Below are positions 1,262 through 38,218 of a DNA stretch of 39,091 bases, piece after piece. Numbering within the stretch: the stretch's first letter is position 1; every line of letters starts with the position of its first letter. Made by a program: the position numbers and the translations under genes. The notes under the pieces are model-generated. The model was not told the DNA's origin, searched no databases, and saw nothing but the letters and a program-made list of their open reading frames with translations. Source of the stretch: a virus; IMG/VR virus record IMGVR_UViG_3300045998_000082, positions 1-39,091 of that record. One strand, 5' to 3'.

Positions 1262-1441
1262 CTACGGGTGGGTGCTGCACTTCTCCTTCAGGTCGGCGAT
1301 GTCCTGGCCGAGGTTGTTCATGAGCCATGCCGCCTCTCGATCCGCTCGCTCCTCGGTGTGGAGCAGGAGGTAGGCCAGGACGACGAGGGCGACCGCCAGC
1401 GGTCCGTACTTGTCCAGCACCCTGACGAGCAGACCGGTCAT
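1262..1441 (-). CDS. Small membrane protein with helical tail
   Basis: A 59-residue protein whose ATG overlaps the stop of the large adhesin-like gene (ATGA). It has one hydrophobic segment at about 11-26 (KYGPLAVALVVLAYLLL) and then a charged amphipathic stretch (HTEERADREAAWLMNNLGQDI) ending with a lone Cys near the C-terminus. The topology, N-terminal anchor plus helix, resembles short spanin-like or lysis-accessory proteins. It is preferred over the 331-residue frame that contains it, whose upstream part merely mirrors the adhesin gene in another frame. Function unknown. Confidence 0.58.
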   Translation of the reverse strand: MTGLLVRVLDKYGPLAVALVVLAYLLLHTEERADREAAWLMNNLGQDIADLKEKCSTHP

Positions 1442-4400: not shown

Positions 4401-4641
4401 CCGACACCGCCGCGAATCCGTTGGCGGTGCCCAGGGTGATGACGCCGCTGTTGCCCGACGCGCCCTCGCCCTCCGCGATGACAACGATGAGGTCTCCCGC
4501 CTGGCGGGTCGGGGCGGTCGCGAGCGAGGGCGTGCAGGTCCCGGTGGACATCGTGGGCGAGGTGTTGCCCACGCCCACGTAGGTGACCTGCGCCTGCGCG
4601 AGCGCGGGCAGCAGGAGCACCAGCGGGATCAGCCGCTTCAC
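1438..4641 (-). CDS. Large secreted-type adhesin/tail-spike-like protein with signal peptide and fibronectin type III domain
   Basis: A 1067-residue protein starting at GTG 4641 (GTGA overlap with the upstream gene). It begins with a textbook Sec signal peptide: MKRLIP, hydrophobic LVLLLPALAQA, then cleavage likely after AQA. The body is rich in Thr, Ser, Gly, Asn and Asp with many beta-strand-like blocks that recur about every 200 residues, each with phrases such as ADTLIVVTATW, NVLILTVIYD and NLLLLVTSDDH. A fibronectin type III domain spans about 488-580, with the NW..ATGATSYKVERA and TTYWYRVRATN strands. A poly-Gly run follows near 601-610. Together with the next gene it probably forms the host-contact apparatus. 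A signal peptide on a virion protein is unusual; receptor-binding or secreted glycan-binding roles are both possible. Confidence 0.72.
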   Translation of the reverse strand: MKRLIPLVLLLPALAQAQVTYVGVGNTSPTMSTGTCTPSLATAPTRQAGDLIVVIAEGEGASGNSGVITLGTANGFAAVSGAAAWWNDGDATDEIGETAVNLFWKIDATGSDSMPVIADSGDHTSCLAVFFRGADPTTPIVCSASDGTDAADTSGSFPGCTTGVADTMILMAESVTDDANDTTNGSGYSNSNLASITEREDQTSSTALGGGILFVTATYSGTGDFGTTTYTKDNTRRSAYTTIAIQPEPPVVGDGPIVRDTGGSTFPVNSNQTNPGATFTTSTFSTSGSADTLIVVTATWCNTDGFAQHPLSIAWSGGSGCNASFTQRAQGANTGTGANTEGTTIWTAECPSGTAVTSRAVQITSQGATGNDEVAVSVDAILHAFGGFGASPPTSVSASGSSVPRNVTFSGVTADSWLYVGASSETFPMSPVQYTTELQETAGTFLCAAANGVNTTELSGSVNAGWSGSAAWSATVGLEILTGDNPTLPGVPGNPTFTDVGQTTITVNWTSATGATSYKVERAPDVSGSPGTWGQIASGVTDLFYVNNSGLTCGTTYWYRVRATNGAGDGDYDTPASQATSACSGGGGTSENSGMMGFFFGEGGGGGGGGGSFALVQHLASTTSPPGKGETGNNFTFTLPNPVLAGNVLILTVIYDATKSLAATPITDTNGTWPTTAAASVDDGNGDLDMDMFVLPNAASGVHTITVAFTSATERFRFRVTEFSGIATSSPENGSAGSSNDPGPTINSGSFTPGDNDVNGGNLIYSVFADTDVFGNNATGYTAGGSFSLLDADIGWHSDASAHSAAEYYVQTTAASINPSITIAQSTYDAHVGLSLALKLASAGTAPGTDMRIVRLVNFTNQVPPASWTIQCPTTGNLLLLVTSDDHSLWDVTGITDNGSQSWSEITTGHTGWPQFWGVTNSTPSLDRLITVAGTGSIQAGSWSCYDIAGANTSAFGSVAGQDQVDVSNLTTKDNWPDLTPGQASGIAIARCALGQGPGTGFNTGAPAGAIWDFVNYTGQTDGSTYNNSDCAGHVWTTSTSTLNWNWTMAATNPNSMNASAVHFKAP

Positions 4642-7358
4642 GGGCCGCGCTCCCCGGAGATCCTACAGGAGTGCGCGGTGGACCCGCTGATCACGCAGCA
4701 GACATCCACCGTGGACGGGATCCGAAAGGGCGTGCGCATGGGGATCACCGCGCCGCCGTTCACACCCAGGTACGTCGTGGGGACGATCACGGTGGTGCCC
4801 GTGCCGCATGTGGTGCCGGTCCCGTACACCACTTTGATGCTCTGGGCGGTCGGCCCGTTGGAGAGCAGGACGTCCTTGATCGTGTATCCGGCCGTCGCGC
4901 TCGCCTGGCAGACCCCGCTCGCCGACTGCGCGTCCCGGGTACACTGCCAGGTGAAGGGGTGGTCCGTGCGGACGAGCAGGCGCCCCTCGATGTCAGCTTT
5001 CAACCGGGTGGCGTCTCCCTCCACCACGGTGCTGGAGTCGAGGGCCGCCCCCTCGGCCTCCGCGTAGGCCCCGATCCGCACTGCGTTGCCTGTCGCCGCC
5101 GAGGAGTGGGCGGTCTGCCCGGCGACCGTGACCGCGTTGGTGACGCTGGTCAGGGTGGTCAGGGTGCCCACGTTCCAGGTCCCGCTCTGGCTCACCGGGA
5201 CCGCCGTCGCCCGGAGCTGGGTGTCCGTGAGTGGTCCGGAGACCGCCATCGTGCCGGTCCCGGCGTTCGCCGTGACGGTGCCGGAGACTGGCTGCGTTGC
5301 CTGCCAGAAGGTGCCGGACACCGGAACCGCAGACTGGTTCGACGCGATGGTCACCGGGGATGACCCCGCCATCGTCGTCTGCCCGAGCGCGGGCGTCTTG
5401 GTGTTGATCGAGGACAGGGTGGTTTCCGTCGCCACCCCGGCGATGGTGCCCAAGTTCGCCGTGACGGTCCCCGAGACCGGCTGCGTCACGCCCGACCCGT
5501 CGGTGAGGAGCCGCGTCGAGGCCACGGTCAGGCCCGATGGGACTTTCCCGTTGAGGGTGGAGAGGGTCGTCTCGGTCGCCACCCCGGTCACCGACACCGT
5601 ACCCGAGACCGGCTGGGTGACCGCGCTCCCGTCCACCTTCAGGCCGTTCGCCGTCGCGACGAGGCCGGTGAGGGTCCCGCCCACGCTCGCGCCGAGATAC
5701 GTGGCCTGCGCAGGGACGCCGGCCCCCGTCGCGCTCGCCGAAGGGGCGGTCAGCATGTCTACCTGCAGCTCACCCGAGGCGTCCGTCTTGATCGCCCGGG
5801 TGTCGGTGCCGTCAGTGCCGGCCACGAACGCTGCGTTTGCCGGGACCGTCGTTCCGGTGGCATCCGTGTAGGAAGGGTCACCCGCGGCGCCGCCCACCAT
5901 GCGCACCGGCAGGGCGTACTCCGATCCGCCCGGGGTGGAGTTGAGGGGCTCGATGACGTTGGCGCCCGTCCCCTGGATCTTCACCGGGAGGTGGCCGAGG
6001 CTGGCCGACTCGGCGGCCCCGCCCACGTTGTCCCAGGCGGCCCCGTCGTAGACCTGAAGCTGGGCATTCCCGCCTCCGGCCCCGCCGGCCACGACGTTGA
6101 CCCGGAGGAGTCCGGCCGTATCCAGCGTCGGCGCCTCCATGTTGCCGTTCGTGTAGGTCGGAGGGGAGGAGACGACGAGACCGCCCGCCGCGGTCCCAGT
6201 GCCGGGGAAGGTGGCACCGAACGAACTGCTCGTCCCGCCGGATCCGCCGCCCGCGACCACGTTCACCCGGAGGTTCCCGGCGGTGTCGAGGGATATGGGG
6301 CTGGTCTGACCCGTCGTGTAGGAGGGAGATCCAGTCGTTACGGCACCTTGGATGATGGGTCCGGTCTGACCCGACGTCGTGCTGCCCTGCGCGCGGCCGA
6401 GCGTCGCATCGAGGGCCAGGCCCCCGGTCGTGCCCACGTTGGCCGTTACCGTTCCCGTGGCGGTCACCGTGCCCGAGACCGGCTGGGTGACCCCGCTCCC
6501 GTCCACCAGAAGGCGCGTAGCGGTCACGGTGAGCCCCGAGGGCACCTTCCCTGAGAGCGTCGAGAGGGTGGACTCCGTGCTCGCACCGGACGGCAGCGGC
6601 AGCGAGCTGGCCGACACCGGCTGGGTGGCTTGCCAGAAGGTGCCCGAGACGGGGACTGCGGTCGCCCGGAGTTGTCCATCGGTCAGGGGACCCGAGACCG
6701 CCAGGGTGCCCGACCCCGCGTTGCACGTCAGGGTCCCCGAGACCGGCTGGGTCACTCCGCTCCCGTCCACCAGGAGACGGGTGGTGGACACCGTGAGACC
6801 GGAGGGCACCTTGCCGTCGAGGCTGGACAGGGTCGTTTCGGACGCCGCACCGGTGGGAAGTGGCAGGGAACTCGCCGAGACGGGCAGGACCGACAGGAAC
6901 GACCCTCCGTCCGAGAGCCTGCAGGCGAGCGGCGAGCCGGCGGTGGTGTGCAGACTTCTCGTCCGCAGCCATCCTGCCAGATCCTGGCTGAAGGGGCTGT
7001 CCGACCCTTCGACCCAGGTCGGGGCCGAGGCGTTCGCCCTGGCGCTCGAACTGGCCGAGATCGACCCGGAGATCCGCAGCGAGCCGTCCGTCGTGAGGGT
7101 CGGGGCCTCCATGTCGCCCGGGGTGTAGGAGGGCGTCCCCGAGACCACCTTCGCGCCGGCCGCGGTGCCGGTGGCCGGGAAGGCGTTCCCGAAGGTGGCG
7201 CCTCCCCCGGCGCTGGTGGTCACCTTGATCGTCCCGTCCGGCGCGACCTCCGCGCATCGGGTCGGATCGATCTTGTCGCAGATCCGCGTCTTGGTGGGAG
7301 TCTGGGCCGCAACCGTAGCGGCGAGGGCTGCCAGTAGGATTCCGGTGATCGTCTTCAT
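4638..7358 (-). CDS. Large repetitive tail/adhesin-like protein with signal peptide
   Basis: A 906-residue protein. ATG 7358 is chosen because it overlaps the upstream stop (ATGA), has GAGGAC before it and begins a signal peptide (MKTITG, ILLAALAATVAA, then QTPTK); the longer ORF to 7931 only mirrors neighbouring genes. After the signal comes a Cys pair (ICDKIDPTRC), useful for a disulfide if exported. The body has degenerate repeats of the pattern ETTLSSLDGKVPSGLTV, TRLLVDGSGVTQPVSGT, and PLTDGQLRATAVPVSGTFW, known from phage tail and baseplate proteins. The C-terminal 130 residues (from about TDHPFTWQC) form a separate domain with several Cys. It is likely to be translated with the next adhesin gene (GTGA overlap). 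Confidence 0.7.
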   Translation of the reverse strand: MKTITGILLAALAATVAAQTPTKTRICDKIDPTRCAEVAPDGTIKVTTSAGGGATFGNAFPATGTAAGAKVVSGTPSYTPGDMEAPTLTTDGSLRISGSISASSSARANASAPTWVEGSDSPFSQDLAGWLRTRSLHTTAGSPLACRLSDGGSFLSVLPVSASSLPLPTGAASETTLSSLDGKVPSGLTVSTTRLLVDGSGVTQPVSGTLTCNAGSGTLAVSGPLTDGQLRATAVPVSGTFWQATQPVSASSLPLPSGASTESTLSTLSGKVPSGLTVTATRLLVDGSGVTQPVSGTVTATGTVTANVGTTGGLALDATLGRAQGSTTSGQTGPIIQGAVTTGSPSYTTGQTSPISLDTAGNLRVNVVAGGGSGGTSSSFGATFPGTGTAAGGLVVSSPPTYTNGNMEAPTLDTAGLLRVNVVAGGAGGGNAQLQVYDGAAWDNVGGAAESASLGHLPVKIQGTGANVIEPLNSTPGGSEYALPVRMVGGAAGDPSYTDATGTTVPANAAFVAGTDGTDTRAIKTDASGELQVDMLTAPSASATGAGVPAQATYLGASVGGTLTGLVATANGLKVDGSAVTQPVSGTVSVTGVATETTLSTLNGKVPSGLTVASTRLLTDGSGVTQPVSGTVTANLGTIAGVATETTLSSINTKTPALGQTTMAGSSPVTIASNQSAVPVSGTFWQATQPVSGTVTANAGTGTMAVSGPLTDTQLRATAVPVSQSGTWNVGTLTTLTSVTNAVTVAGQTAHSSAATGNAVRIGAYAEAEGAALDSSTVVEGDATRLKADIEGRLLVRTDHPFTWQCTRDAQSASGVCQASATAGYTIKDVLLSNGPTAQSIKVVYGTGTTCGTGTTVIVPTTYLGVNGGAVIPMRTPFRIPSTVDVCCVISGSTAHSCRISGERGP
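5080..6890 (-). repeat. Degenerate coding repeats inside the 906-residue tail/adhesin protein
   Basis: Several blocks of about 70-100 codons repeat the phrases [ES]TLS[ST]L.GKVPSGLTV..TRLL.DGSGVTQPVSGT and SGPLTD.QLRATAVPVS. At DNA level the recurring string is like 'gagaccggctgggt' with nearby 'ccgtccacc'. The boundaries given are approximate. Such repeats can recombine and change fibre length. Confidence 0.6.
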
Positions 7359-7744
7359 GCTGTCCTCAATCCGCACGTGTAGTCGATGGTGACCGTCGTC
7401 CCGCCGCTCACTCCCACGGTCTCGGGGATGTACTGAAATCGCGTGGCCTCGAAGCGGGCGATGATCGCCGGCAGGGCTCCCTCGCCCAACCCGGAGAGCG
7501 CGGAGGCGTCGTCGTCCGTGAGCGGCGCCCTCACCCATAGCCCTCGCGAGGGGATCCACACGTACCCGCGCCAGTACCCTGATCCGGTGAAGGTCTCGCC
7601 CTCCTCTGCCCGGAAGCTCGGCATGATCGACCGGGCGTGCCGGAGGTCCACTCCCTGGTTCCCGTCGTTCGTGGGAGCGGCCTCGCCTGTCGCGAGTTGG
7701 ACGGAGCGCCAGGAGGTCCGTCCGGTGCGTATCCAGGTGGCCAT
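7355..7744 (-). CDS. Hypothetical protein in the tail/adhesin block
   Basis: A 129-residue protein with ATG 7744 placed 3 nt after the stop of the two-TM protein gene; its own stop overlaps the start of the 906-residue adhesin gene. The middle has a Tyr/Trp-rich segment (GYWRGYVWIPSRGLWVRAPL) followed by an acidic stretch, and it ends GGTTVTIDYTCGLRTA, a beta-rich end reminiscent of fibre-associated domains. No signal peptide or TM segment. Its place suggests a role with the fibre-like proteins, but I do not recognise the family. Confidence 0.6.
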   Translation of the reverse strand: MATWIRTGRTSWRSVQLATGEAAPTNDGNQGVDLRHARSIMPSFRAEEGETFTGSGYWRGYVWIPSRGLWVRAPLTDDDASALSGLGEGALPAIIARFEATRFQYIPETVGVSGGTTVTIDYTCGLRTA

Positions 7745-7747
7745 GGC

Positions 7748-8002
7748 TCAGATCCCCGTCCTGGCGGGAGGAGCACGGGATGCGGCCACCGACTTCACCC
7801 TGGCACGGGACAGCGCATAGACCACGAAGACCGCGACCACGATGATCGTGCCCGATGCTCCCGCGAGGAGCCCGGCCCAGAGGGGAGAGGCGAGGTAGGT
7901 GACGACGAGGCCGGCGAGCAGCACCACGCACCCCAGCAGGATGATCCAGCGGCTCTGTCTGTACTCGGTGGTGCTTCTCCCCGGAGCGATTCCGATGGTC
8001 AT
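7748..8002 (-). CDS. Two-TM membrane protein, alternative holin or antiholin candidate
   Basis: An 84-residue protein with GGGAGG upstream of its ATG. A polar N-terminus of about 18 residues is followed by a hydrophobic hairpin: WIILLGCVVLLAGLVVTYLA (19-38) and AGLLAGASGTIIVVAVFVVYAL (43-64), then a basic tail (SRARVKSVAASR). It directly follows the DUF2778-like cell-wall enzyme gene, so a holin function next to its muralytic partner is plausible, making this as good a holin candidate as 802-1068. No named family recognised. Confidence 0.58.
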   Translation of the reverse strand: MTIGIAPGRSTTEYRQSRWIILLGCVVLLAGLVVTYLASPLWAGLLAGASGTIIVVAVFVVYALSRARVKSVAASRAPPARTGI

Positions 8003-9317: not shown

Positions 9318-10346
9318 TCACGGGGTGGGAAGGTGATGCAGCACACAGGCCGATCCTCGCAGGACCGACACCGTGTCCGTCGAGTTGGCCGATGCGGCCT
9401 CGAAGAGGAGCGAGTCGTCCGTCTGATCACTCAGCACCACGCCCTCGATCTCGTACAGCATGGCTGAGGCGCTGCACCCCGAGGTGCAACTCACGCCGAA
9501 CGTGCCCGGGACTGCCGTCAAGTAGCCCACCGTCTCGGTGGTAGGCGAGGTCGGGTCGGGCTTGCGTGCCTTCGCGCGGAACGAGGTGGGACTCCCGCCG
9601 GCCGTGTTCACCCGTAGCAGGGGACTCGAATCCACCGTGCCCTGCACCCAGATCGCGCACCGGAAAGTGTACCTGTCCCCGACCGTGAGGAGGTTGTCCA
9701 GGTTCGTGACCTGCTGGTAGCTGCCGGACGAGAACGTCTCGTCCTGCTGTACCACGTAGGACCGCTCCAGCCAGGTGATCCCGGAGTCAGGGACGCACGC
9801 GATCACGCCCGTGCCGTCCGTCCAGCCGGACATCACCTGGCCCGTTCCACACACGGTGGTGGACCCGGTGCCCACCACACCCCCCAGCGTCGCGGCGCCG
9901 GCCGCGGGCAGGGTGTAGGGCGTCCCTCCACCACCGGTCCCCGCGTCCGCCTTGTCTCGCGCGAGCTGCTGCACCTGATAGACGATCCGGTCCAGCCCCT
10001 TCTCGACCGTCTTCGCCCGGTAAGCGGTGAACGGGGACAGTTCGGTCTCCTGGGTGTAGGGCACCTCCCGCTGCATGAGCACCGCCACGTCAAGGCCGGG
10101 CGCTACCGTGAACGACACGGTGCCGCCCGGAGAGGTGGACTGATTCGCGTTCAGGGCGACGGTGTACCCGGAGGTCTGCAGGACCGAGTCGAGATACACC
10201 TTCACGTGGGTGGGGCTCGTCGTGACCTTGAAAGTGAAGTCGAAGTCCAGGGTCGAGTTGTCGCCCACCGACGAGGTGCTGGACGTCTCGGACGGGACGG
10301 TGCCGAGCAGGAGGAGCGTCGGCAGCACTGCGAGGATTCTACGCAT
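9318..10346 (-). CDS. Tail fibre protein with T7-type N-terminal domain and a signal-peptide-like start
   Basis: A 342-residue protein, ATG 10346, 3 nt after the giant gene. Residues about 25-150 resemble the T7 gp17 N-terminal virion-attachment domain: GDNSTLDFDFTFKV, HVKVYLDSVLQTSGYTV, VAVLMQREVPYTQ, and the closing helix KGLDRIVYQVQQLARDKADAG. Gly/Thr-rich beta segments with Cys pairs follow (TVCGTG, VSCTSGC). Oddly, the T7-like domain is preceded by MRRILAVLPTLLLLGTVPS, which looks like a Sec signal. In T7 the domain starts at the N-terminus and assembles in the cytoplasm. Role: anchoring the fibre to the portal-tail junction. A hydrophobic, uncleaved oligomerisation helix is the alternative reading of the start. 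Confidence 0.75.
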   Translation of the reverse strand: MRRILAVLPTLLLLGTVPSETSSTSSVGDNSTLDFDFTFKVTTSPTHVKVYLDSVLQTSGYTVALNANQSTSPGGTVSFTVAPGLDVAVLMQREVPYTQETELSPFTAYRAKTVEKGLDRIVYQVQQLARDKADAGTGGGGTPYTLPAAGAATLGGVVGTGSTTVCGTGQVMSGWTDGTGVIACVPDSGITWLERSYVVQQDETFSSGSYQQVTNLDNLLTVGDRYTFRCAIWVQGTVDSSPLLRVNTAGGSPTSFRAKARKPDPTSPTTETVGYLTAVPGTFGVSCTSGCSASAMLYEIEGVVLSDQTDDSLLFEAASANSTDTVSVLRGSACVLHHLPTP

Positions 10347-10349
10347 GGG

Positions 10350-13300
10350 TCACTCCCACTGGCTCGGGCTGCGGAGGAAGAGATCCTGCACCGGCTCGTC
10401 CAGTTCTTGATTGGCCACCTTCACACACCAGTCCACGTAGTTCCACACCGCGACCGTGGGAGAGCGAGTCATCACCCCCACGAACTCGACCAACTGTCGC
10501 GCATCGCGCTCGTCGCCCTCGCCCTGCGCGATGTCCTTCGCGGAGGCCACCGACTTCCCGAGGGTGACGAGCCACGGGGCAGCCTTCATGTCCCGGTCGT
10601 CCAGGGCCACCTGGCCCACGTCGCCCAGGATCGGCACGGACGAGGTGGCGAGTAGCGCGGTCTCGGTGGCGAGCCTCGCGGCCACGTCCAAGGGGTCCTC
10701 TTCCTTCTTCTTCCGGTTCCGGTCCCGGTCCCGGATCCCTAGGAAGAGGAGTTGCTCGATTGCGACCGGCAGCAGCAGGACCCACCACATCCTGGCCCAC
10801 ACCTGGCGCACCTCCGACTTGGAGGGCCGCCGCTGCAGCTTCTCGGACAGAAGGTTGAACACGATGTTGCGGTAGGAGTACATCACCGTGAACATCTTCC
10901 ACGCCTCGGGACCACGCTGGACGGATGCGAGATCCTTGATGCCGCCCCCGGTCTGCGTCATGCGGACCACGGAGTCGGCGTACTCGTTCGGATCGGCGTG
11001 CCCCTCGGCGAGCGCCTGTTGCTTCGCGCCGTACCACGTGATCGCGTTCACCGCTTTCTGGACCGTCATCAGGGGCCAGGCGGACCACTCGATCACCTGG
11101 GCCTGGGCGCGGCCGATGCTCGACACCTTCGACTGGAGAGCGGTGAACAACTCGCGTGCGTCTCGGTCGAGCTGCTTGTCGATATGTCGGAAGTCACCCG
11201 ACCCCTCCCGGATCCCCTTCCAGCCCTCCCGGAGGAACTGGGCGTACCCCATGTTCATGTACTTCCGTTCCACCATGACCCTGGAGGTGGACAGGCCCAG
11301 GGCCTGCTTCAGGGCGGTGGGGATCTTCAGGAACAACATCGTCACCGAGGACCCGAGGCGCAGGTAGCGCAGGATCCTCGATGCGATTGCCACGGGATCC
11401 TGTGCCACCCCGTCGGACGCGATAGCCTCGAGCCAGGGCCGGAACTCGGCCAGGTACTCGCGCCCCAGCCGCTCGGTGATCGCCTGACGCACCTCGGGGA
11501 CCTGGAGCAGGCGGTCCACCCCGCGGATCGCTTCGTAGTGGGAGAGGTAGTGGACGACCTTGTCAAGATGGCGCGGGATCACATCCAGGGATAGCTCCAG
11601 GGCGCTCATGTCCTGGCCGCGACTCTTCGTGAACCCGTGCTCCACCACCGGGGCGAAGAAGTTTCCAGCCCACAGCCGCTGGGCGTCCTCGGCCTCCGCG
11701 ATGTTCCGGCCCACGTCGGTGAGCCGGTAGTCCTTCACGATGGGGAAGTAGCCGCCGCTCAGTTCGGCCGTCGATCCGTCCGACAGTTCGAGCGTGAAGG
11801 GTGTCGCCTCCACCCGGACGGGAGGCAGCCCGGTGTACCTCTCCGACAGGTCCCGGATCATGGGCCAGAGTGAGTCCACCGTTTTCCACATGTGCTCGAC
11901 CAGGGCCACGTCCTCTGCGTCGAGCAACTGGGCCAGCCGGGCGGTGACCTGATCGTAGGTCCACCCGTACCCGTTCAACAACCGCTCGCGGTTCCCCTCG
12001 TTCCCCAGGTTGAGGACGATGGACAGGATGTTGCGGCGGGAGAGGCGCACCATCTTCCCGAACTTGGGGGAGACGAGGAACCCAACCTTCTGGCGATAGC
12101 GCCGCTGCCGTTCCAGGGACAGGCTCTCCAGCGGCTCCATGAACGTCCTGAAGATCGTGTTGAGCTGGTCGTACCGGGCGGTCTGAGCGTCGGCCAGCGG
12201 CTTGAAGATCAGCTGGTGGGCCATACCGGCGATCTGGCCCCCGTCGAGTTCCTTGCACATGAATTCGATCTTCTTCATCCAGGCGACGGAGGCCCGGCCG
12301 AGTCCCGCGGCCCTCTCCCGGAGCGAGACCTCGCCCGGTGTCGGAGCGGCCGACTTCTCGCCCACGAAGGTGCGGATGTGCGTGGCAAGCTCGGCCGCGG
12401 TGCGGGCCAGGTCTCGCCGCTGCCTGTTCAGGATCAGCTTCCCCTTCAGGCGAGCCATCGCCTCGATGTTCGACACCGCGGCATCCACCGTCCGCAGCTC
12501 CTCCAGCGTCATTTGGCGGTAGTTCTTCAGCTCGGCCATGTCCTTCAGGTCAGGGCCCACGACCTCGCCCGCCGCCTCCCGCTCGGCGATCCATGCTCCC
12601 AGCTTCACTCGCCGTGCGATGGAGCGGTTGCTCTCCCTGCGCAGCCCGATCTGATCCGTGATCTCATCAATGGCGGACAGGTAGCCGGGGCCCGCCCTGC
12701 CTATCGTCCGGCGCACCCCGAGTTCCTCGAACGACCGGAGGTGGTTCCGCCGCCGCTCGATCTCCTCGCGGGCCTTCTCCACCTCACGGACCATGAAGTG
12801 GTTCCACATTTGCCGCCGCTTGGCGTCGTGCGCCTCGGCCCACTTCTTCCCGGCGAGCGCCTCCAAGAAGTGCCGCGCCTCGGCCGCCTCGGCGCGGGTG
12901 TATCGGTCGGAGCTCAACTCCACGTCCGTCATGGTCCGAACGCGCTCCTTCGCTCCGAGGCGCAGGACATCAAGCGCGGCCCGTGCGGGCGGCTGTCCGA
13001 CCCTCTTCCCGACAGCGTCCAGTTCGACGCGCAGGGCGTCCTCGAAGGCACCGGACTCGTGTACCTCCCGCAGGACCCGGGCACGGATGGCCCCCACCGT
13101 GCTCTCGGGGTACTGCTCGGCCAGGCGGCTCTCGACCTGCGCCTTCATCCACGACTCCCGGGTGGGCGTGGACACCAACTCCTGCACCAGCGTTGCTCCG
13201 TCCGGGAACCCGAGGTAGGGCGCCAGAACGTCCGGGTCGAGACCACCCTCGGCCACCGTGTAGAACTGGAGCCGGCGACGGCCCCGTGCGTTCGTGAGCC

Positions 13301-16300
13301 CCTCCAGGGCGCCGGCATCGAGCTTCGCACCCTTGATCTCGTCCGGGACCTCCTGCCCGTCGAGCCTGACCCCGGTGCGGAAGAACTCTCTGGCGTTGAA
13401 CACCCGGTTCTGGGCCGCGAGTTCGGTCACGTCCTCCCTCGCCCGCCTACGCTCCTCCCCCATGGTCCGTTCCAGGGCGCGCAGGGTGGCTCGCTGGGCC
13501 CGCTCGCGGACCTCGGTGGCCGCCCGCTCGAAGCGCGTCTTGTAGTCGGCGAACTGCTGCTCCGTCATCCCGGCCGCACTGGCCGAGTCGAAGGCCGGGA
13601 GTAGACCCGCCTCGTCCCTGGCCTGCTGGATCTCAGCCTCCGTGGCGAGCATCCGGTCCATGACGCCCCGGACCTCGTCCGTCAACTGGACGTCGAGCTG
13701 AGTCAGGGTGCGATAGACCCACGTGAGCCAGGACATGAAGTCCCGGAAGATCGAGCGCAACTCGATGCTGGGCGCCTTGCCTTCCCGGAGGTACGCCTCG
13801 AACCCGCGGGCGAACCGTTCGAGTTGGTCGGTCGTCCACTCGCCCTCGCCGGCACCGAGCCAGTCCGCGATCACCTGCATGTCCGACTGTAGGGACGGAT
13901 CGGCCCCGGGCTGCATCGACGCCTGGCGCATGATCTCCAGGAAGGCGTGCCCCGACTCATGCAAGAACGTGGAGAGGTTTGCCTTTCCGGTGAGGGTGAT
14001 CTGGTACTTGGAACGGGCGATGTCGAACTGCGTGAACCCACGGACGCCGGCTCCACGTTGGTATCCGCGTCTCCATCTTCGTGGCGCAGCCCGGAGACTT
14101 TCGACACCCAACTCTTGACCCACCTTCCCGGCAAGTTCGGGGTAGAGGTGGAGCGTGTCCATCCAGTCGTGGAGACGTCCATCGGCACCGAACCAGACGA
14201 GCGTCGCATTCCCCTGGCCAAGCGCGTCCATGGCCGCATCGGACACATAGTGACTGTGATGGAAACCGGCCGCCTCGGCCTCTTCGTAGGGCGTGGCGTC
14301 GATTACGTGACCGTCGCGCACGTCCACTACGGCAGACCAGACCTTGCGGCCATGCCACGTGCCACGGTTAGCCTGCTCGGGCGTCTGTCTCTGCTCCAGG
14401 GTGATATCCGGCTGGGTGCCTCGCCCGATCTGCACGGGGCCCTGCGGGGTCTCGACGGGCGCACCACTCTCCAGGGCGCGCAGCAGTTGCACACCGAGAT
14501 CCTTCGCTCCACCCTCGATGAGCGACGTGAGCTGATCCGCGATAGCCGGATCCATCTTGGCGCGTGGGGTCTCGCCGCTCCACACCCTCTTCAGCACCTC
14601 GCCGGCTGCGTCATAGTCGATCAGCGAAGCGTCCACGGGCCGGAAGGCAGTGTTGGATCGCGCGTAATCCTTCTTCAGCTTGGAGTAGTTCTTGTGATCG
14701 GCGAAGGAGGCGAAGACAGGCTCGATGCCGCGCTCCTCGGCGAGCCGCAGGTAGTTCTGTGTCATGGTGGCATCGGACAGCCCGTCCACCGCCCCGAGTT
14801 CGTGCATGCGGATCTTCTTGACCTTGCGGATCTTCTTGACCTTGCCCGACTCCCGGATCTTCTTGACCTTGCCCGACTTCCACTTCCATGCGACTCCCTT
14901 CAGCACCTGCTTCACGTGGGCCTTCCGGGCCCGATCCGCGGCAGCCATGGTCGGGAACGTCCCGATCACCTTCCCGTAGAAGACGACCTCATACGCACCC
15001 TTGGAACCACGGACCAGTCCACGGACGGTCTTCTCGGTCTGTTGAGGGGTGTAGTCACCCCATCCGAGGGCTTCGTAGTACTTCCTCTCCAGCCCGGAGT
15101 AGTGGAACGGGATGATGTAGTGGATCCACTCTTGGTCAAGCGCCCACCGGATCTGCTCGTCGGAGGTCGCCACGAAAACGGCGCCCACGTTGTCGAACTT
15201 GGCCGACAACTCCTGCGCGTCCTTCCACGCCATTCCCTGGTCGGCGTCCTCGCTGATCTTGCCGTCCTTCTCCTTGGCGAAGACGGAGGTCATGATCTTC
15301 ATGCCGGTGGCACCGAAGATCTCCACGAAGTCGCGCACCTTGGTGTAGGCGTGGGCCTTGGCACCCCGGAGCTGCAGGTCCCAGAACGCCTGGATGAGAT
15401 CTATGACGTGCTCAGCCTGGAAGTCCGACGACGAGAAGAACCTGAACCCGGCGTACTTGTTCAACTCATCGATAAGGCGGTCCTCGATGTCGAGGATCTG
15501 CCCCGAGTACTCCTCATAGAGCTTGACCAGATTTGCCTTCGCGTACCGGACCTGGGAGTCGATGAAGTCGTAGATCGGTGCGTGGCGGACGACCTCCTTC
15601 ATCCCCGCCTTCGAGGACGCAGTCGCGGGATCCAAGACGTTGTTCACGTCGATGTCGGCCGGCGACATCCCGTGTTCCACGTAGTAGAGCCGGGCCTTGG
15701 CGGCGGCGCGCCGATCACCGGGTTTCCAGTTCTTGGGAACCTTCTGCTGTCCCGTGATGATACCGAGGGCACGCTGCGCAAAATCGCCGGCCTTGCCCCT
15801 CGGCGATTCCACGTAGCAGTAGAGACACGGGGCTGTCTTCCCTGCCGCCCTGAACAGTGCGACGAGGGCGATGCGCTCGCTGGCGGTGAGTGCCCGCTTC
15901 AGCCTGCGTTGTACCTCTGCCTGCGTCGCCTGGGCCTCCAGCCGCTTCACACACATGGAGGTGGCGTCGAAGGAGATCTTGTAGATCGGATCGATGTTCG
16001 TTCGCAGCGGTCCCTTCTTCGCCTTGGGATGCCGCGTTCCGACCGGGAGCAGGTCGATCTGGGTCGGGCCCAGCGACGAGAAGATCGCGATCTGGCCGTT
16101 GATCCCGTCGAGGATCGCCTTCACCTCCGACTCGCTGGCATCGTAGTTCTCGGTGATCCAGGCCCGCATCTTCTCCTTCCACGCTGGGAAGAAGTTCCCG
16201 TGCTCATCCCGCAGCGCGACGCCTGAAGGATCCCGCTCGATCTGGTTCAGTCGGATGAGTTGATCGGCCGGCGGGGGAAGCGTGACCTCTGCATCCTTGG

Positions 16301-18800
16301 CAGGCCCGTCCTGCTGGGCCGCGAGGGCGTCCGCCACGCGACCGGCGAGGGCCTGCGCCTCGGGGGAGAGTTCACGGAGCGCGGATGGCAGTTCCCCCCG
16401 CATGCGCTGGATCTCTGCCTCGGCCTCGTTGAGTCGCTCGATCTCGTCCAGGTCGAGTGCCTGCAGGGCGTCCGCCTCGATCCGGTAGCGGTCGAACGAG
16501 GTGGAGGCCACCGCGGCCTCGTACTGCGCGCGGTCCTCGGGATCGAGCGCGGCCAGCTCCTCGGCGGTCGGCTTGGGAACCGACTCGACCTTCTCGATTC
16601 CGACCCCGAGCCTCTTCAGCCGGGCGTACATGCGCTCCGTGGCCGGGGTGCGGATGATGTCCGACTCGAAGGCCAGCCCCTTCTCCTTCGCCAGCATGAG
16701 CGAACGGAGGTAGAGGGCCGTCGAGTACCCCTGACCTCCGATCTTGGCGATCTGCGCCTTGGATTCCGGGCCGCCGATCTGCAGGAGTTGTGCGCGTAGC
16801 TGCTGCTCGTCCTGCGTGATCTCGAAGGTGATGGGGCTGCCGGGACTCTTCAGCAGGTAGCCCCGTGCCCCGTAGTTCTGGGTGACCTCCCGCACCTGTA
16901 CGTTCCGGGTGGGCTGGTAGAGGGTCTCCAGGTCTCCGACCGGCGCCACGTCCTCACCGAACGTGAACTTGATGTTCCAGCCCTTGTAGACCTCCCATGC
17001 GTCCCGGCCGGTCTTCTTGCCCATCATGCGGGCGAACGACGCCCAGAGGGCCGCCTCGGGCCGGGCCACCTCGGTCGCCTGGCCCTGTTCCAGTTGATCC
17101 ATGACGTCCCGGAAGACTTTCTGCTCGGGCGTGGCCGACTCGACCTGCTGCTGTCCCTTCTCGCGTTTCGCTTCCGCGTCGGCGAGTGCCTTGGCGTCCT
17201 TCTCGACCGACTTCGCCTCGCGCAGGGTGAGTTCGTTCCCGATCCTGAAGTCCTCCTTCATCGCCTCGAACCCGGGGAGCCGGGCGATGTGGACCGCGAA
17301 GTCCGCGATGGGGACGGTGACCTCCACGTTGGTGTTCCCGCTGGCCTCCTCCAGTTGCCGCGCCACCTCGGGCATCCTGAGAGCGACCTGCTCCAGGGTG
17401 ACCTCGTTGCGCTGGAACACGGTCATCAACTGCTCGGCCGGCATGGACACCGTCTCGACGGGCCCACCGTGCCTCGCCTGCACCCGCTCCACGTACGCCT
17501 TCGCCTCCTCGGGGAGGCGCTCGAAGGTCTTGGAGGATTGAACCGCCTCGCCCAGGGCGAGCAACTTCCGGGCCCGCAGTTCCGCTTGGCGGGCCTCCAG
17601 GGTCTCGACGGTGAACCCAGCCGCCACACCGATGCCCCCGTAATAGGGCGCGGCGAGTCCCCCCATGAGCCCAGCGTCGAAGACCCGGTCCCAGTCCACT
17701 TGCGCCAGGGACAAGTCCTGCATCGGATCCACCGCCTGGCCCGTGAGCACAGTGGTCAACTCCTGGGCTGCCTCGGTGAACCCCTCCACCAACATTCCCT
17801 CGGCGATCCGGGCCGCAGCCCGTGCGAACCTGGCCCGACCAGCCTGCGACTTCAGGATCCGACCGATTGCGTCCTTGATCACCGTCCCCTCGACAGCCTT
17901 GCCGGCGGCCCGGCCGGCGAGCGCCTTCAGGCCGGGTATCTGCAAGATGATGTCGAGGGAGAGGCCCTCCAGGGCTCCGTTCACGATCCCGACGAGAGTG
18001 GCCCCGAGACGCGCCTCGGAGTGGTTCACGCCGGGGATCTTGATGTACTCGCGGTAAGCGAGACCTCGCTCGGCGAGGCCCATGTTGATCGATGCCTCGG
18101 CCTTCATCCCGGTGATGGTGCCCGCGATCCCTCCCGTCACAGCCCCGGCCACGGCTCCACCGGGGCCGAGTGGGGCCCCTACGACCGCACCGCCTGCGAG
18201 TCCGGTGGCGAGTCCCACCGACGCGCCAGTGCCCGTGCGCGTGAGGATGTCCACCATCAAGGGAGCGTTCTGGGCTGCGGATCGCATCGACAAGGCGAGT
18301 AGACCAACGTCCTTCAGGCTTCGCTGGTATCTCTCCTGCTCGGCCTCGATCCGATCCGCCTCGGCGAGCTGCGCGGGCGTGGCGAGCCCATCAGCCTGGA
18401 GGTTTCCGATCTCCTTGAGCCGGACGGTCCCGAGCCCCAGCCTGAGATCGTCCTTGAGCCGGACGTCGCCCCACCCCGAGAAGATCTTCTCGATCAGGAC
18501 GAGGGGGGTGATGTCGTCCTGCATCGCCGCGGCGCGGCCCGGGTCGGAGAGCGTCTCCTGCGTGGCCGGCGCGCCCTGCGTGAGGCCCTGCCAGGTGGGC
18601 TCCGGCCTCGACATCTTGTCGGCCCGCTCCACCAGATCCAGGGACACCCCGAGTTGCTTGGCCCTCTTCAGGAGATCGGCGGACCGGTCCGGCGAGCGCC
18701 CCGCAGCGAACGCCTCGGCGTCCGCGAGCGCGGAGGCCCGGTCCTCCTCTCCGGTCTGGGGAGGGTAGATCTGATCGAGTGCCTGATCGATCTTGTCCAT
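10350..18800 (-). CDS. Giant polyvalent internal virion protein (2816 residues) with zincin, CxxC and GNAT-like regions
   Basis: The third of three genes in the T7 gp14-gp15-gp16 order, so probably the large internal/ejection protein, much longer than T7 gp16 (about 1300). ATG 18800 overlaps the upstream stop by one base (TGATG); GTG 18803 is the alternative. Seen in order: a Gly/Ala-rich hydrophobic stretch (about 185-230); a GNAT-like segment (about 680-735, GQGYSTALYLRSLMLAKEKG); a domain with Cys950 and CLYC (992-995) followed by FRFFSSSDFQ and HAYTKVRDFVEIFGATG; a basic KVKKIR repeat (about 1308-1331); the HExxH motif HESGH (1614-1618) of zinc metallopeptidases; long charged helices; and a Trp/Leu-rich hydrophobic stretch near 2667-2690. 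These modules match phage 'large polyvalent proteins'. Likely ejected with the DNA; peptidase activity is inferred from the motif only. Confidence 0.78.
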   Translation of the reverse strand: MDKIDQALDQIYPPQTGEEDRASALADAEAFAAGRSPDRSADLLKRAKQLGVSLDLVERADKMSRPEPTWQGLTQGAPATQETLSDPGRAAAMQDDITPLVLIEKIFSGWGDVRLKDDLRLGLGTVRLKEIGNLQADGLATPAQLAEADRIEAEQERYQRSLKDVGLLALSMRSAAQNAPLMVDILTRTGTGASVGLATGLAGGAVVGAPLGPGGAVAGAVTGGIAGTITGMKAEASINMGLAERGLAYREYIKIPGVNHSEARLGATLVGIVNGALEGLSLDIILQIPGLKALAGRAAGKAVEGTVIKDAIGRILKSQAGRARFARAAARIAEGMLVEGFTEAAQELTTVLTGQAVDPMQDLSLAQVDWDRVFDAGLMGGLAAPYYGGIGVAAGFTVETLEARQAELRARKLLALGEAVQSSKTFERLPEEAKAYVERVQARHGGPVETVSMPAEQLMTVFQRNEVTLEQVALRMPEVARQLEEASGNTNVEVTVPIADFAVHIARLPGFEAMKEDFRIGNELTLREAKSVEKDAKALADAEAKREKGQQQVESATPEQKVFRDVMDQLEQGQATEVARPEAALWASFARMMGKKTGRDAWEVYKGWNIKFTFGEDVAPVGDLETLYQPTRNVQVREVTQNYGARGYLLKSPGSPITFEITQDEQQLRAQLLQIGGPESKAQIAKIGGQGYSTALYLRSLMLAKEKGLAFESDIIRTPATERMYARLKRLGVGIEKVESVPKPTAEELAALDPEDRAQYEAAVASTSFDRYRIEADALQALDLDEIERLNEAEAEIQRMRGELPSALRELSPEAQALAGRVADALAAQQDGPAKDAEVTLPPPADQLIRLNQIERDPSGVALRDEHGNFFPAWKEKMRAWITENYDASESEVKAILDGINGQIAIFSSLGPTQIDLLPVGTRHPKAKKGPLRTNIDPIYKISFDATSMCVKRLEAQATQAEVQRRLKRALTASERIALVALFRAAGKTAPCLYCYVESPRGKAGDFAQRALGIITGQQKVPKNWKPGDRRAAAKARLYYVEHGMSPADIDVNNVLDPATASSKAGMKEVVRHAPIYDFIDSQVRYAKANLVKLYEEYSGQILDIEDRLIDELNKYAGFRFFSSSDFQAEHVIDLIQAFWDLQLRGAKAHAYTKVRDFVEIFGATGMKIMTSVFAKEKDGKISEDADQGMAWKDAQELSAKFDNVGAVFVATSDEQIRWALDQEWIHYIIPFHYSGLERKYYEALGWGDYTPQQTEKTVRGLVRGSKGAYEVVFYGKVIGTFPTMAAADRARKAHVKQVLKGVAWKWKSGKVKKIRESGKVKKIRKVKKIRMHELGAVDGLSDATMTQNYLRLAEERGIEPVFASFADHKNYSKLKKDYARSNTAFRPVDASLIDYDAAGEVLKRVWSGETPRAKMDPAIADQLTSLIEGGAKDLGVQLLRALESGAPVETPQGPVQIGRGTQPDITLEQRQTPEQANRGTWHGRKVWSAVVDVRDGHVIDATPYEEAEAAGFHHSHYVSDAAMDALGQGNATLVWFGADGRLHDWMDTLHLYPELAGKVGQELGVESLRAAPRRWRRGYQRGAGVRGFTQFDIARSKYQITLTGKANLSTFLHESGHAFLEIMRQASMQPGADPSLQSDMQVIADWLGAGEGEWTTDQLERFARGFEAYLREGKAPSIELRSIFRDFMSWLTWVYRTLTQLDVQLTDEVRGVMDRMLATEAEIQQARDEAGLLPAFDSASAAGMTEQQFADYKTRFERAATEVRERAQRATLRALERTMGEERRRAREDVTELAAQNRVFNAREFFRTGVRLDGQEVPDEIKGAKLDAGALEGLTNARGRRRLQFYTVAEGGLDPDVLAPYLGFPDGATLVQELVSTPTRESWMKAQVESRLAEQYPESTVGAIRARVLREVHESGAFEDALRVELDAVGKRVGQPPARAALDVLRLGAKERVRTMTDVELSSDRYTRAEAAEARHFLEALAGKKWAEAHDAKRRQMWNHFMVREVEKAREEIERRRNHLRSFEELGVRRTIGRAGPGYLSAIDEITDQIGLRRESNRSIARRVKLGAWIAEREAAGEVVGPDLKDMAELKNYRQMTLEELRTVDAAVSNIEAMARLKGKLILNRQRRDLARTAAELATHIRTFVGEKSAAPTPGEVSLRERAAGLGRASVAWMKKIEFMCKELDGGQIAGMAHQLIFKPLADAQTARYDQLNTIFRTFMEPLESLSLERQRRYRQKVGFLVSPKFGKMVRLSRRNILSIVLNLGNEGNRERLLNGYGWTYDQVTARLAQLLDAEDVALVEHMWKTVDSLWPMIRDLSERYTGLPPVRVEATPFTLELSDGSTAELSGGYFPIVKDYRLTDVGRNIAEAEDAQRLWAGNFFAPVVEHGFTKSRGQDMSALELSLDVIPRHLDKVVHYLSHYEAIRGVDRLLQVPEVRQAITERLGREYLAEFRPWLEAIASDGVAQDPVAIASRILRYLRLGSSVTMLFLKIPTALKQALGLSTSRVMVERKYMNMGYAQFLREGWKGIREGSGDFRHIDKQLDRDARELFTALQSKVSSIGRAQAQVIEWSAWPLMTVQKAVNAITWYGAKQQALAEGHADPNEYADSVVRMTQTGGGIKDLASVQRGPEAWKMFTVMYSYRNIVFNLLSEKLQRRPSKSEVRQVWARMWWVLLLPVAIEQLLFLGIRDRDRNRKKKEEDPLDVAARLATETALLATSSVPILGDVGQVALDDRDMKAAPWLVTLGKSVASAKDIAQGEGDERDARQLVEFVGVMTRSPTVAVWNYVDWCVKVANQELDEPVQDLFLRSPSQWE
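14808..14879 (-). repeat. Tandem coding repeat of KVKKIR in the giant protein
   Basis: On the plus strand 'gcggatcttcttgacctt' occurs twice in tandem (14808-14825, 14826-14843) and a third, nearly identical copy is at 14853-14870, each flanked by 'gcccgact'. It encodes the highly basic GKVKKIRESGKVKKIRKVKKIR segment. The 18-nt unit keeps the frame, so copy number could vary without disrupting the gene. Confidence 0.85.
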
Positions 18801-20647
18801 CACCGCTCACCCTGCAGGTACAGGAGGGTGGCGAGACGGACGATCTCGTCCTCGGTGGGGGCCAGCACGGCCACGTCGTGGCCCGGCATGAGTCGGCCAG
18901 CAGCACGCTCCGACTTGATCTTGGCTGCCCGCTTCGTGAGCGTCTCGCGGTTTCGCCGCAGGTACTCGAACACGCCGATCAGCTCCTCCTCGCGCAGCGG
19001 GGTGCGCGCGTTGGCCTTCCAGGCTCGCTCGACAAACGGAGTGGCTGCCTCCACTTCGCCCTGGAGCAGGGCGAGGTTCTTCTCGTCCGTCTTCGTGTGC
19101 AGCCGCGCGGCGAGGCGCAGGTAGGTCGCGGACGGGTCGAAGGTCTCCACGTCCCGCCCCTGGAGCTTTCGGCCCCCCATGAACCCCTTCTTCTGGCGCG
19201 CGACGGCGAACTCCCGGGCGAAGACGTTGTGGATGATGTTGTTGCGCTCGTCCACTTCCAACTGCGCACCCTTGCGCTGTGTGGCCTGGAACAACTCCTG
19301 ATCCGTTACCATCCGCATGTAGCCCGCGGTCTTCTGATCGGCGGTGGATATGTTGGAGCCCGAGACCTGGACGCCCTGGTCGAGCAGCAGCCGGTCCACC
19401 TCCTCCTGCGGTCCCATGAAGCTGGAGTACTTCACGGTCCCGACCCCATCGGCCTTCATCGAGCGCTGGAGATCCACGAACCGGTAGAAGTGTTCCGGTT
19501 TCAGTGCGCCAGCTACCACGTACTGAAGGAGATCGTGATCGAGGAACTTCTTGGGTTGGTAGCGCGCCATGTCGGAAATGAACTGGTACGCCGCGTAGTC
19601 CGGGGCCTGCTCGGCCTTCTTCTGGGTCCCGGCGATGATGTTGTAGAGGTGCTCCCGCATCTTGGGGGAGGCACTGTTGCGATCCGGGACCAGCGCGAAC
19701 GGAAGCGCCCGCCCGGGATGCCGGATGAGTTGGTCGATCACGGTGTTCTGGGCCGCGTCATCCAGGGCGTCGAACGCATGATCGGCGGCCTGCTTCGACT
19801 CCACTTCGTACCCCTTGACGAGGTGCTCCAGCTCTCGCTTCAGGCCGATCCGCTCCTTGTCGTCCAGCATGTCCACGCCCTGCCCGGATTCGAGCTGCCC
19901 GATGAGCTTGCCAGCCTCCAGCACGTCCTTCGTGGACCGCACCCCGATGCGGATGAAGTCATCGAAGGGCTGCCACTGGCGCTCCTTCTCGATGCGGCCG
20001 ACCCACTGCTCCTTCTCGGCTGGGGTGAACACGTCGGAGGCTCCGACCGCATTCCGGGCGGTCGCGAATTCGCCGGCCCGGATGAGCCGCTCGAAGTCGG
20101 TGGACTGGCGCTGCCGCTGGTCCGTCTCGAAGTGAGCCGATTGGACCTGGGCGATCTTCATCTTGCGGGCGACCAGATCCTGCTTCGCGGAGTCGATGAA
20201 CGCGGTGCGCCAGCCGGATGGCAGATCCTGGCCCACCGACTCCAGGAGACGCTTCGACTTCACGTCCCAGATCGCACCCGCCAGTTCCCACATCGGCACG
20301 TCCTGCCGATCCACCTCCTCGTAGGTGCCGGTGTTGGTGTTGAACGCCCGTTCCTTCAGGGCGGCCTTCACGGGCCCGGGGAGGGACTCGAAATCGGCGC
20401 CGAGTTCCTCCCGCACCTGGGACCCGGACACCGATCTGTTCTGGGTCAGCTTGGATTCGAGCACCGCTGCGCCCTCGGCGAGGTCCGCCGCGGCCCGGAT
20501 CGAGCGCGTCTTGATCGTCTCCTGGGCCCAGGCTGCGAGCCCCTCGGTGCCCGTATCGATGGCTCGGGAGACCTGTCCGGCGAGTTGCATGCGCTCGGGT
20601 CCCGGACCACGGACGGGCGTTCCGTACTGGATGTCGGGGAGCTTCAT
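18800..20647 (-). CDS. Internal virion protein, T7 gp15-like position
   Basis: A 615-residue protein starting at ATG 20647, which overlaps the stop of the gp14-like gene (ATGA). The longer ORF to 21319 is a mirror of upstream genes. The sequence is charged and largely helical with no signal or TM segment: MKLPDIQYGTPV, then long helices (AAADLAEGAAVLESKLTQN, FETDQRQRQSTDFERLI), the mid region KGFMGGRKLQGRD, and a C-terminal DEIVRLATLLYLQGE. Position between a gp14-like protein and the giant protein, and length near T7 gp15 (about 750), support an internal core or ejection-channel protein. Direct homology is not visible by eye, so the call is mostly from synteny. Confidence 0.66.
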   Translation of the reverse strand: MKLPDIQYGTPVRGPGPERMQLAGQVSRAIDTGTEGLAAWAQETIKTRSIRAAADLAEGAAVLESKLTQNRSVSGSQVREELGADFESLPGPVKAALKERAFNTNTGTYEEVDRQDVPMWELAGAIWDVKSKRLLESVGQDLPSGWRTAFIDSAKQDLVARKMKIAQVQSAHFETDQRQRQSTDFERLIRAGEFATARNAVGASDVFTPAEKEQWVGRIEKERQWQPFDDFIRIGVRSTKDVLEAGKLIGQLESGQGVDMLDDKERIGLKRELEHLVKGYEVESKQAADHAFDALDDAAQNTVIDQLIRHPGRALPFALVPDRNSASPKMREHLYNIIAGTQKKAEQAPDYAAYQFISDMARYQPKKFLDHDLLQYVVAGALKPEHFYRFVDLQRSMKADGVGTVKYSSFMGPQEEVDRLLLDQGVQVSGSNISTADQKTAGYMRMVTDQELFQATQRKGAQLEVDERNNIIHNVFAREFAVARQKKGFMGGRKLQGRDVETFDPSATYLRLAARLHTKTDEKNLALLQGEVEAATPFVERAWKANARTPLREEELIGVFEYLRRNRETLTKRAAKIKSERAAGRLMPGHDVAVLAPTEDEIVRLATLLYLQGER

Positions 20648-36917: not shown

Positions 36918-37125
36918 TCGCAGCGGACGCAGCCGGCCCCTACCGCCTCTCCGGGTGGAGCGGGAGATCGTGGTCTGGCCCTGTCCCGGTGGGTGCCGTG
37001 GGGAGTGGGCGGTCTACCGCGGGGACGAGCCCCGGCACTGGATCCGGAGGGCGGACGGGGTCCTGCTCTGTCCTGCCTGCTATCGGCGGTGGAGGCGGGC
37101 CGAGGAGCGGAAGGCGGGCAAGTGA
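36907..37125 (+). CDS. Small zinc-ribbon-like hypothetical protein
   Basis: A 72-residue protein from ATG 36907, overlapping repeat gene 3 by 11 nt. After an Arg/Pro-rich start it has VVWPCPGGCRGEW, then DGVLLCPACYRRWRRAEERKAG: two Cys pairs spaced for one zinc ribbon, with an acidic-basic linker. Stop overlaps the dpdA start (GTGA). Function unknown; one of several small Cys-rich proteins in the early unit. Confidence 0.62.
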   Translation: MSPSRSGRSRPLPPLRVEREIVVWPCPGGCRGEWAVYRGDEPRHWIRRADGVLLCPACYRRWRRAEERKAGK

Positions 37126-37763: not shown

Positions 37764-38218
37764 CCCTGACTCGCCGGTACACTTTCTGTGCCTCTCACCG
37801 GTTGATCGGAATGCGGGATCGGCACAAGTGCAGTCGTCTGCACGGTCACAACTACACCGTTGATCTCACGGTGGCCGGGCCCCTGATCAACGGACTGGTG
37901 GTGGATACCGGCGAGCTGGACGTGCTAATGGGCCCGGTGATCGCGCGACTCGATCACCATGACCTAAACGAGATCGGCGCAGAGGGTGGAATGTCCACTC
38001 CGCTACAGCAACCGTCCGTCGAGAACATCGTGGCATATCTCGCGGACGCCCTCGGATTCCTGCGGCCTCACTCGACGCGGATATTCGAGGAGGGGACCAA
38101 AGCTGCGGACGTGAACGAGCCTCCGGGGTTTGGCTGGGTCGCGGTCCGTGTCTACGAAAACGACCGCACGTGGGCCGAGGTTCGGGCCGAGGAGCGCAGG
38201 ACCAAGGGTGAGCGATGA
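37757..38218 (+). CDS. queD: 6-carboxytetrahydropterin synthase (QueD)
   Basis: A 153-residue protein. ATG 37757 overlaps the dpdA end by 7 nt with GGAG just upstream (GTG 37760 also possible). Family hallmarks: FCASHRL (10-16, zinc ligand His14), KCSRLHGHNY (24-33, nucleophile Cys25, ligands His29 and His31), VVDTGEL (48-54), LDHHDLNE (65-72) and RVYENDRTWAE (131-141) with Glu134. It turns dihydroneopterin triphosphate into 6-carboxytetrahydropterin, the second step of preQ0 synthesis. QueE, QueC and FolE are not in the window, so the host probably supplies those steps. Length is slightly above the usual 120-140. Confidence 0.93.
   Translation: MVTLTRRYTFCASHRLIGMRDRHKCSRLHGHNYTVDLTVAGPLINGLVVDTGELDVLMGPVIARLDHHDLNEIGAEGGMSTPLQQPSVENIVAYLADALGFLRPHSTRIFEEGTKAADVNEPPGFGWVAVRVYENDRTWAEVRAEERRTKGER

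Follow-up and report, generated by a model that had tools for sequence, protein, structure and literature searches.

In phage N4, the cargo of gp50 is an RNA polymerase, which is ejected into the cell (PMC12633501), and for T7 gp16 hydrophobic segments have been reported that are comparable to those of the protein described here (PMC8954989). The zincin of BPP-1 Bbp10 was recorded in 2013 as CLCA_X (PMC3650047). The family formed by phrog_9880 and Bbp10 is already known, yet unstudied: we found no published test of the packaging of its members in the virion, no earlier description of a fixed slot between a constant N-terminal part and a zincin frame and, in a literature coverage that is incomplete, no report that polyvalent or ejection proteins contain a radical-SAM domain or that a virion delivers one as a cargo. 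The words 'radical' and 'adenosylmethionine' are absent from the main text of Iyer et al. 2017 on polyvalent proteins (PMC5512222).

Here we analyse a giant member of this family, encoded in a viral DNA stretch of 39,091 nucleotides that is referred to as the window. Our reading is that it serves a BPP-1-like podovirus as the ejection protein at the gp16 position and consists of a delivery frame and an exchangeable, radical-SAM-like cargo; we assign this reading a probability of about 0.6.

Position and family of the giant protein

Positions 10350-18803 on the minus strand of the window form one open frame of 2817 codons, which begins with GTG followed by ATG and yields 2816 amino acids when counted from the ATG. 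Its product matches phrog_9880 with an E-value of 6.5e-281, the sequence match covering the N- and C-terminal parts, and tblastn located homologues in 43 phage records, none of them with 80% coverage in one place, among which annotated genes of the same kind are present. The core-protein frame of about 2816 residues that had been proposed from the letters of the sequence (hereafter the sequence-only reading) is thus real, being open throughout and homologous to frames in these 43 records, and on the grounds of the open frame, the profile match and the homologues it is assigned to the phrog_9880 / BPP-1 Bbp10 family as a giant ejection/polyvalent protein at the gp16 position. The family comprises at least 589 IMG/VR stretches, and the length of the protein is ordinary for it (DC33, 3125 aa; ctQRb9, 3209 aa; Nostoc phage JY18, 4012 aa). 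Sequence searches of the PDB returned noise only, and weak Pfam matches to adenylosuccinate synthetase (residues 402-457) and Sec10_N, both under cut-off, were disregarded. The names 'crystallin beta/gamma motif' protein and lysin, given to relatives in some records, found no support here.

Upstream of the giant frame lie, in order, genes for the terminase, Head-tail_con and the capsid, followed by the tail genes phrog_394 and phrog_376. The gene directly preceding it (18800-20647, minus strand, start at 20647) encodes 615 aa and takes the position of the SLT-bearing ejection protein of relatives; the gene following it downstream (9318-10346, minus strand) encodes a protein whose N-terminus matches the tail protein phrog_1640 in a profile search. 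The same order is found around BPP-1 Bbp10, AF gp16 and vir555, so that the gp16 slot of a podovirus, to which the frame had been assigned, is its correct position. The preceding gene contains an SLT domain in Carin1, BPP-1 and AF, and lacks it in vir555 and in the window. As the sequence-only reading had it, a transglycosylase motif is missing: profile searches for SLT or other lytic transglycosylase domains were negative for the giant protein and for the rest of the window. The tail-fibre gene of this phage is followed by a pair of genes (1438-7931, minus strand; 1067 and 1097 aa), one with a fibronectin type III domain and the other with no family match.

A swapped slot between constant ends

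In an alignment of 18 family members, both occupancy and conservation are high at residues 1-640 and 1600-2817 of the giant protein, and occupancy is low in between. The constant N part (residues 1-640; 16884-18803, minus strand), delimited by alignment, profile and hydrophobicity, contains an LPD22 domain (residues 34-112; 18468-18704, minus strand; profile match with E 8.7e-9) and two hydrophobic segments at residues 194-212 and 268-289, the first of which is the Gly-rich hydrophobic N-terminal stretch described earlier. The constant C part (residues 1761-2817; 10353-13523, minus strand), defined by alignment and predicted structure, is helical and bears a hydrophobic segment near its C-terminus (residues 2670-2692; 10728-10796, minus strand). 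A hydrophobic segment recurs within the last 220 aa of 79 of the 95 family members, against 36.7 expected after shuffling; this end is the part described earlier as membrane-like. The top rows of a structure search with the C part were membrane transporters, aligned over ~100 helical residues, and were set aside as a common helical arrangement.

Residues 641-1584 (14052-16883, minus strand) constitute an exchangeable cargo slot with contents specific to this phage, as delimited by alignment, slot lengths and phmmer. For 84 members, a set to which viral contigs were added and in which the borders were defined by profiles, length quartiles are 620/657/680 aa for the N part and 1244/1260/1274 aa for the C part, zincin included, and 185/420/891 aa for the slot, the shortest of which is about 0 aa and the longest 2312 aa; in the 18-member alignment the length of the slot lies between 8 aa (MZH0603) and 1287 aa (Nostoc phage). 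The flanks align over >700 columns in 2872 of 2926 member pairs, any similarity between slots is found in 499 of the 2926, and an alignment over half of the shorter slot in 279. Two members with 99% identical flanks (L029 and L036) have slots of 1500 and 599 aa with 48% identity across 471 aligned positions, and two with 97% identical flanks (L034 and L037) have slots of 98 and 303 aa. Judged by these alignments, the phrog_9880 family is one of fixed N and C ends with a swapped middle slot.

The slots of relatives hold enzymatic content, with the PBECR nuclease domains PBECR1 in BPP-1 and PBECR5 in Carin1 and Ab9, the ADP-ribosyltransferase domain ART-PolyVal in SR18, ctEw122, ctQRb9 and DC33, ddrB-ParB in ctype202, LPD23 in AF, and GNAT in V1185, Ab9 and, weakly, CP2. 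The polyvalent character suggested for the giant protein is borne out by its LPD22 domain and by the PBECR, ART-PolyVal and ddrB-ParB domains in the slots of its family; in the window, at least two disparate domains, namely LPD22, the zincin and the radical-SAM-like domain discussed below, are joined in one phage protein. In phmmer searches, flank slices of the window protein matched 30 to 98 sequences, and no match was obtained among 97 relatives for the slot slices comprising the putative GNAT, residues 800-870 and the Cys domain; a single match of the last slot slice (E 0.007) proved to be noise on inspection.

The first slot segment (residues 640-800; 16404-16886, minus strand), which has a relative in the slot of L109, had been called GNAT-like. 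This is unconfirmed: the segment has no GNAT profile match, its GxG-like motif is discernible by eye only, and hhalign of the segment against three slot GNATs of relatives gave a probability of 0.1%. Further towards the C-terminus, residues 1476-1575 (14079-14378, minus strand) are an unassigned slot segment.

The core protein might also be purely structural, with slot contents that are neutral inserts. The slot is empty or near-empty in MZH0603, L024 and ctRVW222, which accords with such a reading and shows the cargo to be dispensable for the phage group. Against it stand the recognisable enzyme domains in the slots and the invariance, across divergent phages, of the catalytic-type residues of the Cys domain; we regard neutral inserts as very improbable and take the slot contents as cargo in what follows.

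The zincin

The zincin domain (residues 1585-1760; 13524-14051, minus strand) was delimited by conservation and predicted structure. In its conserved HESGH motif (residues 1615-1619; 13947-13961, minus strand), the H, E and H of HExxH are kept in 96 of 96 sequences that have a residue there; E1662 is kept in 98 of 98 family sequences and E1669 in 97 of 98. An AlphaFold2 model of residues 1586-2785, computed from 70 sequences (pLDDT 86.6, pTM 0.74), has HESGH in helix 25-45 and both glutamates in helix 73-88 (model numbering), after two strands. Its conservation and its placement in a helix of the model argue that the motif is not due to chance, and the zincin proposed in the sequence-only reading is genuine. 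In the model, E1662 and E1669 are conserved candidates for the third zincin ligand on the next helix; the absence of a third ligand, named earlier as an outcome that would speak against a zincin, was thus not observed. HExxH on one helix with a Glu on the next is the arrangement of a zincin-like metallopeptidase and agrees with the description of the MPTase by Iyer et al. (PMC5512222).

As to its role, the sequence-only reading had suggested a payload that may stand in for a transglycosylase in opening the envelope, or else cut host defence proteins. The zincin residues are intact, the window is devoid of a recognisable transglycosylase, and host-directed proteolysis is one possibility in Iyer et al. 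2017 (PMC5512222); however, the zincin stays constant while the payload domains swap, is retained in members with an empty slot, and is also kept in phages with an SLT domain in the adjoining gene, which makes a payload unlikely. Because the zincin persists both with an empty slot and next to an SLT, it behaves, as far as its distribution among the members tells, as part of the delivery frame. Its most likely task would be to process the giant chain of which it is part, either in the course of assembly or once entry has taken place, and not to open the envelope. Iyer et al. consider autoprocessing but point to the N4 virion RNA polymerase, which has a comparable zincin and goes into the virion unprocessed (PMC5512222).

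The Cys domain of the slot

Residues 870-1262 (15018-16196, minus strand) form a radical-SAM-like domain of (beta/alpha)6 type, as delimited by alignment, AlphaFold2 and structure search. Its cysteines C951 (15951-15953, minus strand) and C993/C996 (15816-15827, minus strand) together make up the pattern C-X41-CxYC. The domain is followed by a basic insertion in which KVKKIR is repeated in tandem (residues 1265-1335; 14799-15011, minus strand), which is missing from most relatives, has a comparable counterpart in L109, and is possibly a recent product of slippage, and then by a C-terminal extension that is kept in most cargo relatives (residues 1335-1430; 14514-14801, minus strand). The sequence-only reading had correctly noticed a Cys domain, which is real with C951, C993 and C996, and had missed both its likeness to radical-SAM enzymes and its location in an exchangeable slot.

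Residues 870-1430 were not recognised in library searches and gave no match in tblastn against phages and plasmids, and peptide-pattern scans of viral contigs found nothing. A fixed-gap degenerate motif derived from FRFFSSSDF...HAYT led to two relatives, with tblastn E-values of 2e-123 and 6e-68, and an alignment search with the Cys domain yielded ten loci, both of these among them; the same alignment found no relative with those patterns in 85,000 cellular genomes. The relatives are encoded within large ORFs of phages, mostly 2,100-4,100 aa long, with one of 859 aa. In L102, L103, L105 and L109, the Cys domain has behind it a C part that belongs to the same family, and L106-L108 are other giant proteins. 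The L109 slot additionally holds, ahead of the zincin and alongside the Cys domain, a C5 DNA methylase domain.

Across the alignment of 11 divergent sequences, D946, C951, C993, Y995, C996 and the motif YVE are invariant. The canonical CX3CX2C is absent; nine sequences have C-X41-CX2C, with a spacing of exactly X41 between C951 and CxYC, and two have C-X8/9-CX2C. This fixed spacing (X41 in nine, X8-9 in two) indicates that the first Cys is tied to the CxYC pair. The two sequences with X8-9 spacing also carry extra C-terminal Cys clusters. In L110 and L111, two distant relatives of the Cys domain, extra clusters C-terminal of the CxYC domain (CCKTGVCSSCKVFCG; CCGGGKCSRDATKCG) resemble those of auxiliary-cluster radical-SAM enzymes.

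The AlphaFold2 model of the Cys domain (pLDDT 76.6, pTM 0.70) has a core in the order strand, Cys, helices, CxYC at the start of a helix, and five further strand/helix units, so that the predicted fold is a partial (beta/alpha)6 order resembling a TIM barrel. When this model was compared with the PDB by VIA-align, the best 30 rows were radical-SAM enzymes throughout (Z 6.0-8.9), and rank 31 was another fold (Z 5.9). The top row was QueE (Z 8.9, rmsd 4.6, 196 aligned), and the set further included an engineered viperin-like enzyme (7.9), spore photoproduct lyase (7.7), PFL-AE (7.3), LIAS (7.2) and, lower down, SuiB, TYW1, NifB, anSME and EpeE; with Z of 7-9 at an rmsd of 4-5 Å, this support is moderate. 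Foldseek, in which matches were weak (E-values above 0.05), placed PFL-AE at rank 1 and QueE at rank 3, and in a viral structure library a phage radical-SAM protein was found at rank 2 and a Gp88 protein at rank 3. The Radical_SAM profile PF04055 matched the Cys domain in none of the 11 records, and no Pfam or NCBIfam family reached its curated cut-off.

Non-canonical Cys spacings occur within the radical-SAM superfamily, and CxYC, with an aromatic residue ahead of the last Cys, is a radical-SAM pattern. Since the structure matches but PF04055 and CX3CX2C are absent, we label the domain radical-SAM-like rather than a proven member. The predicted model makes it probable that the cargo of the window is a non-canonical radical-SAM domain, which may be active and injected. 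The chief competitor is a TIM-barrel-like domain of the Gp88 kind, with zinc or a structural Fe-S cluster and no radical chemistry. Besides the Gp88 protein in the viral library and the missing PF04055 match, it can draw on a weak match to GP88 (PF17338) in one relative (20.3 bits against a curated cut-off of 24.4, which no relative exceeded); it has to contend with 30 best PDB alignments that are all to radical-SAM enzymes and with the aromatic residue before the last Cys, and Gp88 may itself be radical-SAM-like. We consider a domain of the Gp88 kind a serious but distinctly less likely alternative, and retain the radical-SAM-like reading.

Probable 7-deazaguanine genes in the same record

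On the plus strand of the window, a gene for a DpdA-like transglycosylase and, behind it, one for QueD/PTPS (36993-38218) likely constitute a 7-deazaguanine DNA modification locus, with QueC absent from the record. It is followed by a C-5 cytosine DNA methylase gene (38215-39090, plus strand), which is broken off at the record end. In another phage, a locus (L113; G006:C1:13383-18066) has in a row genes for QueD, QueC, apparently FolE2, possibly a deoxyribosyltransferase, and a DpdA-like protein; its 20.7 kb fragment contains no PF04055 match, and the giant protein of that phage holds the radical-SAM-like domain.

The cargo could, on this account, supply a QueE-like step of 7-deazaguanine DNA modification together with the DpdA-like and QueD-like genes of the phage. 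QueE is the best structural match, DpdA-like and QueD genes are present in the window, QueD is present in 2 of the 11 records that bear the cargo against 0 of the 37 that lack it (Fisher p 0.049), and the fragment with L107 has QueD, QueC, apparent FolE2 and DpdA genes and lacks a PF04055 match. On the other hand, QueD is missing from 9 of the 11 cargo-bearing records, several records are fragments, DpdA is not enriched (p 0.22), and the phage QueE proteins reported to date cluster with cellular ones (PMC6884629). We therefore judge a QueE-like role of the cargo improbable and keep it as a lead.

Discussion

Judging from the position of its gene and from T7 gp16 and N4 virion RNA polymerase as analogues, the giant protein probably enters the bacterium together with the phage DNA. 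The constant N part, with LPD22 and its hydrophobic segments, and the C part, with the zincin, a helical region of ~1,050 residues and the hydrophobic end, would be packed into the phage head, exit via the tail and come to span the inner membrane, and the cargo between them would arrive in the cytoplasm with the first DNA. There, the radical-SAM-like cargo might pick up a [4Fe-4S] cluster and host SAM and, as infection begins, modify a molecule of the host or of the phage; the zincin would cleave the giant chain at one of the two stages considered above. The more specific claim is that some podoviruses inject, with their DNA, a radical-SAM enzyme of non-canonical type (C-X41-CxYC) that is catalytically active and is one of the many payloads exchanged within a dedicated slot of gp16-type ejection proteins; it seems to us somewhat short of an even chance.

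With one frame, hundreds of payloads and near-empty controls, found in phages that infect laboratory hosts, the family is a natural inventory of phage deliveries during the first minutes, and the comparison of cargo-bearing with cargo-free members makes a cytoplasmic role of ejection proteins directly testable. If true, a radical-SAM effector delivered by the virion would be unexpected chemistry that early, as it needs host SAM, a reductant and a cluster. The slot boundaries suggest a natural scaffold for protein delivery.

Among known systems, QueE and other radical-SAM enzymes resemble the cargo in predicted fold and in having Cys at the expected positions of the chain; the cargo differs from them in its C-X41-CxYC spacing, in having no PF04055 match and in being embedded in giant phage proteins. 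The N4 virion RNA polymerase gp50 shares the order of parts, with N-terminal membrane helices, a cargo, a HExxH domain and a helical C domain of ~1,100 residues (PMC12633501). A sequence relationship between it and the C part was not detected by hhalign (probability 0.5%, with a single N4 sequence and not a profile), and its rank 4 in the Foldseek search with the C part is at noise level and without significance; the likeness is one of analogy and not of membership. T7 gp16 is similar in genome position and hydrophobic segments. Structural matches of the C part to podoviral core and ejection proteins are weak, with Z 5.4 for the PhiM1 ejectosome and Z 5.0 for the T7 core protein (entry 9jyy; 223 aligned), both under the reliable range, and Z 4.0 for the E1004 core. 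Unlike T7 gp16, the giant protein has no N-terminal transglycosylase, is >2x as long and carries a zincin and a cargo. Polyvalent proteins (Iyer et al. 2017, PMC5512222) are likewise giant and multi-domain, with LPD22, a zincin-like MPTase and effector-type neighbours. Closest are the described members of phrog_9880, BPP-1 Bbp10, AF gp16, CP2 and Carin1 gp32, which belong to one family with the giant protein and share its gene position, both constant parts and the zincin; what differs is the slot, with PBECR1 in BPP-1, PBECR5 in Carin1 and the radical-SAM-like domain in the window.
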